Source: Acidobacteriaceae bacterium (GTDB lineage Bacteria; Acidobacteriota; Terriglobia; Terriglobales; Acidobacteriaceae). Taken from it: 64,000 nucleotides of DNA. The notes below the pieces were generated by a model. That model made no database searches. It was not told the origin of the DNA and was given only the letters and a program-made list of their open reading frames with translations. A program made the position numbers and the translations under genes. Below, piece after piece: positions 59,902-62,941 of the stretch (position 1 is its first letter; each line of letters begins with the position of its first letter). Location of the stretch: NCBI GenBank assembly GCA_003165075.1, contig PLSM01000108.1, positions 1-64,000 of the forward strand. The letters are read 5' to 3'.

Positions 59902-59934
59902 GACCCCGCCGTGCAGATTTCCCGCAGCGGGTTC
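59902..59934 (-). ncRNA. Group II intron domain V (outer intron)
   Basis: Minus strand GAACCCGCTGCGGGAAATCTGCACGGCGGGGTC, followed by GGGGGGAG that could begin D6. Confidence 0.75.
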
Positions 59935-59935
59935 T

Positions 59936-60649
59936 TCAGGCGTAACTCCCCGCTCCCACCCAGGCGTGTGTGATCCGAGGTAACAACAGTGGATGCTGCC
60001 GCAGGATAACGCTATATCTGTCCCACGTCAGCGGTTGCCCGCGTGTTCGACGACTCAGCCACTCGCGCCAGATACGACATACGCGTCGATAGAACTGCCG
60101 AATGCTGTGGTAGTTCGTCGGGCGTCCATAATACTGGTAGTGGCCACGGAGTTTGGCGTTCAGGGTTTTCTGTTGTTCGTCCACAGGTTTATGCCGGTAT
60201 TGTTTGCTCCAGTCGGCGATGGCCTTCAGCCCTCTGCGAAGCCGTTTGGCCAAGGTCTTAACATGCACTGTAAACTTACCCTTCCGGCTGCGGGCGCAAA
60301 GGTGCTTGAAGCCCAGGAAGTCGAAGGTCTCGGGCTTCTTCCCCTGTTTCCTCGCGTTCCTTGCTGCATGGCGCCCGAATTCAATCAGCCGCGTCTTCTC
60401 CGGGTGCAAGGTCAGACCGAACTTCTCAAATCGCTTCGGTAAGACCCTCAGCACCTTTTCTGCGTCCTCCTTGTGCTGAAAGCACAGGATGGCATCATCA
60501 GCAAAACGAATCTCGTAGGCTTCCCCTATCAAACGGGGCTTCACCACTTCCTCGAACCACACATCGAGTGGGATGGTAGAGACGAGTCTTGACGGCTGTA
60601 GCCCGTGCGGAGCCTCACACCAACTGGCGCTTTCGCGCTGGCGCCTCAC
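59936..60649 (-). pseudogene. 3' part of a group II intron reverse transcriptase/maturase (outer intron), interrupted by the inner intron
   Basis: [65 protein letters not shown]...FDFLGFKH...LRGHYQYYGRPTNYHSIRQFYRRV. Confidence 0.85.
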
Positions 60650-60687
60650 CGAGTAGGCATGGCCACTTGATCTCGTCTCCCCAAGCA

Positions 60688-60720
60688 GAACCCGGCGTGC
60701 AGATTTCCCGCACCGGGCTC
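60688..60720 (-). ncRNA. Group II intron domain V (inner intron)
   Basis: Minus strand GAGCCCGGTGCGGGAAATCTGCACGCCGGGTTC. Confidence 0.85.
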
Positions 60721-60752
60721 CCCAGATGACATTGGCTAAAGTAAGGTATCGG

Positions 60753-62051
60753 TCAGGTCATCGGGTGTAGGTTTTGAGCAAACGGCAGTTTGAACCACGG
60801 TTGATCTTTCAGGCGCGCCCAGTTCGTCTTACGCCTTTGACCGCGACGATTCAGGGCATGCATCCACTGTCGCTGTATTTGCTGCCGTACCCAGTTGAGC
60901 TTTCGCTCGCAGTGGTGCAGCCCAAAGTACTGATAGAAGCCCCTCAACATCCTTTGCAGGTGCTGTTGTTGCTCCCACCGTCGCCAGTGTCTGTTGTGAA
61001 GGATCCACTCCCGTGTGCGAGTCAGGAACTTCCGGCAACTCTTAACGCTCGGGATGCGAATCAGAGCAAACCGCCCCGTCCGGTCAATCCCACAGACATG
61101 CTTGAAGCCTAGAAACTCGAAAGTATCCGGCCTTCCCAGTCCGTGTCGTAGACAAGTCACGCCTGCGAATCGCCCAAAGAGTATGCGCCGAGTTTTCTCC
61201 TCGGCCAACTCCAGCCCGAATTCCGCGAACCGCTCCCGCACTCTCTGCTGGAATTGGTCCACGTCCTCCCGGAACTGAAAGCTCACCACAAAATCATCAG
61301 CAAAACGCACCAGGTTCGCCTCGCCCCGACACTGCGGTTTGATTTTCTTCTCAAACCACAAATCGAGAACGAAGTGGAGATAAAGGTTACTCAACACGGG
61401 TGAGATCGGACCGCCCTGAGGAGTACCTTCCCCTGTGTAGATGACAACCCCGTCTTGCATTGCTCCGGCATTAAGCCATTTTCCGATCAGGCCAAGAATC
61501 ACCGGGTCAGCAATGCGGTGGGCTACCATCTTGCGCAGCCACTGATGATTTATGCGAGTGAAATAGCTGCGGATATCGGCTTCAAATATCTGCCCTACCT
61601 TCCTCGTTACGATCTGCACCCGAAGAGCTTGCAGCGCGTGATGAGGATTTCGACCAGGTCTAAAGCCGTAACTGCAATCCAGGAAGTCTGCTTCAAATAC
61701 CGCTTCCAAAACGCGTGCTACCGCCCGCTGAAGCAATCTGTCCGAGGCCGTTGGAATTCCTAGCGGCCGCGTCCCGATTTTGCCCGGCCCTTTGGGTATA
61801 TTTACCCTTCGGACCGGCGGTGCGCGATAGGTGCGCTTCTTTAGCTGTTCGCAGATCGCCTCGACTTGCATGTCCAGTTCGCTGCCAAACTGCTCAGCAC
61901 TCACTCCATCGACTCCGCCCGCTGCGCGCCGATTCATCATTCCCCAAGTCTCCTTGAGAAATTCCGGCGTCAGCAAGTGCGCCAATGAGGTAAACCGTAC
62001 CTTGCGATCTAACTTCGCCTTCTTAGTTATCTGACTCAGTTGTGTTGACAC
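60753..62051 (-). CDS. Group II intron reverse transcriptase/maturase (inner intron, apparently without HNH domain)
   Basis: LGIPTASDRLLQRAVARVLEAVFEADFLDCSYGFRPGRNPHHAL, GTPQGGPISPVLSNLYLHFVLDLWFEK, LVRFADDFVVSF, FEFLGFKHVCG. Confidence 0.94.
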   Translation of the reverse strand: MSTQLSQITKKAKLDRKVRFTSLAHLLTPEFLKETWGMMNRRAAGGVDGVSAEQFGSELDMQVEAICEQLKKRTYRAPPVRRVNIPKGPGKIGTRPLGIPTASDRLLQRAVARVLEAVFEADFLDCSYGFRPGRNPHHALQALRVQIVTRKVGQIFEADIRSYFTRINHQWLRKMVAHRIADPVILGLIGKWLNAGAMQDGVVIYTGEGTPQGGPISPVLSNLYLHFVLDLWFEKKIKPQCRGEANLVRFADDFVVSFQFREDVDQFQQRVRERFAEFGLELAEEKTRRILFGRFAGVTCLRHGLGRPDTFEFLGFKHVCGIDRTGRFALIRIPSVKSCRKFLTRTREWILHNRHWRRWEQQQHLQRMLRGFYQYFGLHHCERKLNWVRQQIQRQWMHALNRRGQRRKTNWARLKDQPWFKLPFAQNLHPMT

Positions 62052-62479
62052 CAGATTCCTGCCTCCGTGTGTGCAGGTGATGTTTCCGTAAAGTCAGGCT
62101 TCATCTGCTTCGCCGCTTCCCCATGTACGCGGCTTTCCCGCGCTCGGAGTACTACCAGCGAATCCGACTTCGCACTGTCGCATTTGCCTTTCTCAGGAAT
62201 AATCCCTATCGTCCGGCATACTCGATCCGTTTTGTTTACAGATCAAGACCACAGTGGATCTCCCAGGTCCCTTGATGCTTCCTTATCCGAACGTGCCGTG
62301 CTCTCTGACCCCGCCGCAGTCTCCGGCCACCTCGCCATTTTGCGGTGTGCCTACTGGTGCCTTCCAGCCACTATGATGCTGTCGGCCTGCGGTTGAATAC
62401 TTAACGAGGCTCAATCGCGTTTACTTTCGTTACGGCCCGCGCGTCGCTCTGTCTACGCTTAGTCCAATTCGTTACCTCC

Positions 62480-62941
62480 TCAGACCCAAGACTCGATTCC
62501 CGGTGAGGCGGCTGCACCTCTTGTCGGGGCGGGAATTTCACCCGCTAGAAGCACCAGGTTTTGTCCTGGCGCACCATGGTGCAGGTAGATGTTGGCCAAG
62601 AGCGGGCTGATCGGCTGCCCCTGTCCAAAGTGTTGTCTCATCGCCTCAGGATCGGATAGCTGGCCAAACTGAATCTCGATCACATCGTACCCCTGGTTGC
62701 GTAATTCTTCGCGAATCTCCCGATCCCGCTTTTGAGTTTCCGGCCGACCGTGAAGGTGACCAGCCATACCGTCAAGGTAGACACAGAGTCCAGCGTAGAT
62801 ATCCAGATTCCGCGAATCAAAGAAGAAGTCCGGCACAGTGGGCCCAAGAGGCCGACCCAGATCGATCGGGTATTGCGGTTTGTAGCCTAGGAATTGGGCT
62901 CGCTCCAGCATTGCGCGTAGCGTCAATTCCGGGTCATTCAC
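62480..62941 (-). pseudogene. C-terminal part of a DUF1998-type helicase protein fused to an outer-intron RT fragment and inner-intron 5' sequence
   Basis: DFFFDSRNLDIYAGLCVYLDGMAGHLHGRPETQKRDREIREELRNQGYDVIEIQFGQLSDPEAMRQHF, then RT motif [12 protein letters not shown], then intron 5' end. Confidence 0.68.

Follow-up and report, generated by a model that had tools for sequence, protein, structure and literature searches.

Structure and ends of the inner intron

The window analysed here is a 64,000-nt stretch of DNA from an Acidobacteriaceae bacterium (GCA_003165075.1, contig PLSM01000108.1, positions 1-64,000, forward strand), whose genome assembly (G000) consists of 194 contigs. All coordinates below are those of the window, and every intron, reverse transcriptase (RT) and helicase feature lies on its minus strand. 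A complete group II intron of 2004 nt (60571..62574; GTGCGCC...CTACCATCC), hereafter the inner intron, is inserted in phase 1 of the RT gene of a second group II intron, the outer intron; the site falls in the catalytic RT domain, immediately ahead of the FADD motif. The ribozyme domain I-IV core of the inner intron (62299..62538) matched Rfam RF02005 (group-II-D1D4-6; 124.9 bits, E 5e-35), and domain V (D5) with part of domain VI (D6) matched RF00029 at 60648..60722 (43.8 bits; gathering threshold, 40). Both the Rfam match and folding (z -3.05) placed an AGC triad in D5 (GAGCC...GGGTTC). The intron-encoded RT/maturase (432 aa, 60753..62051) has an intact RFADD motif and matched Pfam RVT_1 (1.5e-32) and TIGR04416 (2.5e-99, above the cut-off); its match to the Pfam maturase domain GIIM was sub-threshold, and a domain profile search found no endonuclease domain. 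These results bear out an earlier note on this DNA, which had described a complete intron with an RT open reading frame (ORF) and a D5.

The ends of the inner intron were set by comparison with its relatives. Three of them aligned end to end with positions 1-2004 (L016, 88% nt identity; L017, 77%; L021, 77%) and had different flanks, while further relatives matched one end exactly, again with differing flanks. The 5′ end, GTGCGCC at 62574, was thus correctly called in the earlier note, since relatives align from position 1. So was the 3′ end, put there at about 60571, because all relatives with a readable 3′ end retain sequence up to 60571. In the covariance-model check the D6 match stopped at 60648, and it is the homologues that carry the end to 60571; D6 is long, extending about 115 nt after D5, and folds. 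The 3′ terminus, ..ACCATCC (60575-60571), is shared throughout the inner intron family and departs from the usual AY. Altered 3′ splice sites are known exceptions among group II introns (PMC4424553), and we treat the CC terminus as a deviation.

A shifted 3′ end is excluded by an empty site. L015, from a genome of the same genus (G024), is related to the outer RT but carries no insertion, and reads ...CTGCATCATGCACTCGATGTGTGG... across the junction. The joined flanks of the window were 85% identical to L015 over 834 nt, gapless at the joint, and the C-terminal half of the outer RT was 85% identical to it at the amino acid level. The in-frame join 62575|60570 proposed earlier therefore corresponds to a contiguous reading frame in a homologue of the outer RT.

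Recurrent insertion at one RT codon

Insertions at one and the same codon (L-H-Y|A; after LHY or LHH, in phase 1) were seen in at least 7 host RT genes from 5 genomes, belonging to Acidobacteriota and Bradyrhizobium. The host genes are those of the window, of three contigs of G451 (C123, C161 and C111), and of G452, G456 and G491; G675 was not counted, as it has the same host gene as G452. For the three G451 contigs and G491, the insertion site was judged from the 3′ side alone. A further G451 contig, C82, holds the 5′ side of an inner-type intron, preceded by outer domain I (D1) and the N-terminal half of an RT. Homing into the RT genes of sibling introns, as the earlier note had suggested, is thus supported, and so is the idea that other copies might lie at LANIYLH(Y) codons, with copies in G451, G452, G675, G456 and G491.

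The introns are far more alike than their hosts. In G451, three RT genes carry copies with identical termini (142/142 and 145/145 comparable nt), and these hosts are 34-83% alike. In Bradyrhizobium the introns are 92-98% identical; the hosts in G452 and G456, by contrast, are 59% alike, and that in G491 can barely be aligned. In a phylogenetic tree the inner RTs formed one clade and the tested host RTs fell into three others. No further close members of the inner intron family were found in a phylum search (396 genomes) or in plasmid DNA, and a search of viral contigs returned one distant relative.

Some members were found at other sites. L031 (position 3494), a 71% relative, interrupts another group II RT at a codon (DADIRDYF|) other than the one above, and has a different exon-binding site 1 (EBS1). 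Three members outside RT genes (L018 at 1886, L022 at 7783, and L112) have in common a 3′ exon resembling CCGRNTTTGATTT..CGRCAGGCACAGG, which may be another target used repeatedly, for instance the end of an insertion sequence.

EBS1 pairing and target choice

The EBS1 candidate proposed in the earlier note (CATAGTG, 62369..62375) pairs at 6/7 positions with the last seven bases of the 5′ exon, the putative intron-binding site 1 (IBS1; CACCATG, 62575..62581). Such a match is expected for about 1.4% of random 7-mers, and the window pairing is therefore modest evidence by itself. Among family members, EBS1 and IBS1 vary together. The pairing was 7/7 in L016/L091, L017, L021 and L022, and 6/7 in L027, which has a different exon and a correspondingly different EBS1. 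Over the six members, the cognate combinations total 40/42, the maximum over exon permutations, which is reached by 1.1% of them. The RTs encoded by the RT-site clade read LHF where their targets read LHY, so that an intron would pair less well with its own gene; this suggestion of self-avoidance comes from few sequences.

The outer intron

Upstream of the inner intron, the outer RT is represented solely by 52 nt (62575..62626), and the 85% identity to L015 begins exactly at 62626. Within the upstream frame, RT sequence is confined to 62626-62575, and the rest belongs to a remnant of a Druantia DruE/MrfA-like helicase (62627..63759; MZB domain; DruE, 3.8e-22), which is 75% identical at the nucleotide level to an intact homologue (L113, G015 C89) up to 62627. 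Downstream lies the C-terminal half of the outer RT (A-LDVWFEE..., 59936..60570; RVT_1 profile positions 111-204). It is followed by a D5-like hairpin (59902..59936) with the triad AAC and an A-G mismatch. The D5 assigned to the outer RT at 59902-59934 does fold (z -2.79) and resembles the inner D5; it gave no Rfam match even at E<=1, however, and is degenerate. The 3′ end region (59790..59901) ends near 59790, where similarity to both L015 and the L016 host stops, and a C-terminal transposase fragment (DDE_Tnp_1_6; 59668..59790; Pfam, 7e-07) borders the outer element on its 3′ side.

Domains I-III of the outer intron and the N-terminal half of its RT are gone from the window, and the earlier picture of a twintron within a second intact RT ORF did not hold. 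With these parts lost, excising the inner intron could yield neither a functional outer intron nor a functional RT; a spliced transcript of the window should give only a fusion of the helicase remnant to the RT C-terminal half, with no plausible function. Judged from its sequence, the outer element is a relic and not half of an intact twintron. A continuation of the helicase gene, expected downstream of the relic after a simple insertion of the outer intron, was sought there and not found, pointing to truncation by rearrangement, or to a 5′-truncated insertion followed by other losses. No second copy of the inner or the outer intron was found in G000. The outer intron is better preserved around the inner one in G451, B. 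iriomotense and Bradyrhizobium Ec3.3. The helicase, possibly a defence gene, has lost its C-terminus where the relic begins, and a stop separates its two ORFs.

Origin of the nested arrangement

Taken together, these observations very probably reflect a mobile, endonuclease-less group II intron whose EBS1 pairing guides retrohoming to an RT codon block, and which entered the RT gene of an outer intron that is now a relic. The sequence establishes the nesting, both ends, the empty site, the repeated targeting of RTs, the EBS1/IBS1 match and the truncation of the outer element; splicing, mobility, the retrohoming route and the order in which truncation and insertion took place are inferred. The inner intron would reverse-splice into DNA at the block ...L-A-N-I-Y-L-H-Y|A..., thereby copying itself. 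This codon block would be constant among group II RTs, and EBS1 pairing would direct retrohoming to it in an RmInt1-like manner. When the host RT is transcribed, the inner intron would be spliced out and the RT frame rejoined. In the genome studied here, the inner intron would have entered the outer-intron RT, and the 5′ part of the outer intron would have been lost by rearrangement either before or after that event.

Several points weigh against this interpretation. Its evidence comes from DNA sequence. Six members (L018, L020, L022, L027, L111 and L112) lie outside RT genes, as judged from readable flanks, and RT targeting is thus a strong habit and not an exclusive one. The IBS1 of the window has one C-A mismatch with EBS1, and the EBS1 heptamers were taken by eye from a domain I alignment of six members. 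Because the RT-site members mostly have similar exons, the permutation result depends largely on L022 and L027. A check of EBS2/IBS2 pairing gave no clear outcome either way. Finally, G000 looks in some respects like a metagenome assembly, and the helicase/RT junction may therefore have been misassembled.

If that were so, the outer intron might be complete in the real genome. The assembly, with its 194 contigs and a number of RT fragments sitting at contig ends, fits such an artefact, which we nevertheless consider improbable: the inner intron and the outer C-terminal half are single-copy in G000, and L108 and the RT have no common sequence at the joint. It is also on a misassembled junction that a functional twintron, with both introns active and the outer one mobile while carrying the inner, would depend in the window, as the 52-nt remnant otherwise refutes it. 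The frame preserved across the junction is compatible with a functional twintron, as is G451, where outer D1 with the RT N-terminal half (L097) and the outer RT C-terminal half with D5/6 (L098, L099) are present on separate contigs. The missing 5′ ribozyme and RT N-terminal half, the lack of a second genomic copy and the degenerate D5 make it very unlikely.

Vertical inheritance of a single old insertion, carried along with its RT gene without repeated targeting, is equally unlikely. Some composites were indeed inherited or moved jointly, since G452 and G675 have the same host RT and intron. The account is already contradicted by intron identity far above host identity, with near-identical introns in hosts from three RT lineages, and by a genome in which three copies with identical ends occupy different hosts. 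Repeated retrohoming remains the explanation that we favour. We also put forward, tentatively and with somewhat less than even confidence, that the inner introns are a bacterial family that specialises in the RTs of competing group II introns. The codons targeted by it would be fixed by RT protein function, leaving several RT classes open to invasion; EBS1 would track synonymous codons, and LHF in place of LHY in the family's own RT would weaken self-pairing.

Relation to known nested introns

Nested homing is already known. In the archaeon Methanosarcina acetivorans, group II introns are nested up to five levels deep, and deletions accompany the pile-up (Dai and Zimmerly 2003, as reviewed in PMC4424553). 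Homing into other group II introns and deletions are common to both cases, whereas in the present one a bacterial RmInt1-like family occupies a single RT codon, both in Acidobacteriota and in Bradyrhizobium. In the F3-in-F1 twintrons of Thermosynechococcus elongatus, the inner intron has no ORF and is flanked by two start codons (PMC2882425). There, as here, the inner introns are identical while their outer introns have diverged, which shows recent independent insertion; unlike F3, the present inner intron carries its own RT and lands immediately ahead of FADD, within the catalytic RT domain. The Trichodesmium twintron, an intron within an intron in a host protein gene, is spliced sequentially in vivo (PMC4649490). 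It is likewise a bacterial intron-in-intron, but the outer element described here is a relic. The present case adds a member from a different lineage to this known kind, its inner intron carrying an RT and its target lying within the catalytic RT domain.

RmInt1 of Sinorhizobium meliloti is a IIB3/class D intron (PMC5894124) and, like the inner intron, encodes an RT/maturase without an endonuclease. The inner RT was 43-44% identical (over about 95%) to intron-encoded proteins from S. meliloti plasmids, which may differ from that of RmInt1 itself. The target differs from that of RmInt1, and in the tree the inner family is a supported clade of its own, separate from L114. By analogy, an RmInt1-type route of retrohoming is most likely for the inner intron.

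This case documents predation of one bacterial mobile element on others, at a site that the host elements can hardly alter without damage to their own RT. Unless the inner intron splices, a host intron whose RT is interrupted is disarmed, so the family could limit how far other group II introns spread, and its recurring landing site is cheap for the cell. For tests of target choice, the EBS1/IBS1 combinations over the host RTs form a natural series.

Genomic surroundings

Group II RT fragments lie at the ends of five G000 contigs (C34, C45, C118, C156 and C187), which suggests that the assembly was broken by other introns that are repeated. An ISL3-family transposase was identified by Pfam at 53462-55150 of the window; beyond it, G000 C58 (66685-70288) carries ORFs recognised by eye as a serine recombinase and integrase-like. 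The surroundings of the window are thus rich in mobile elements.
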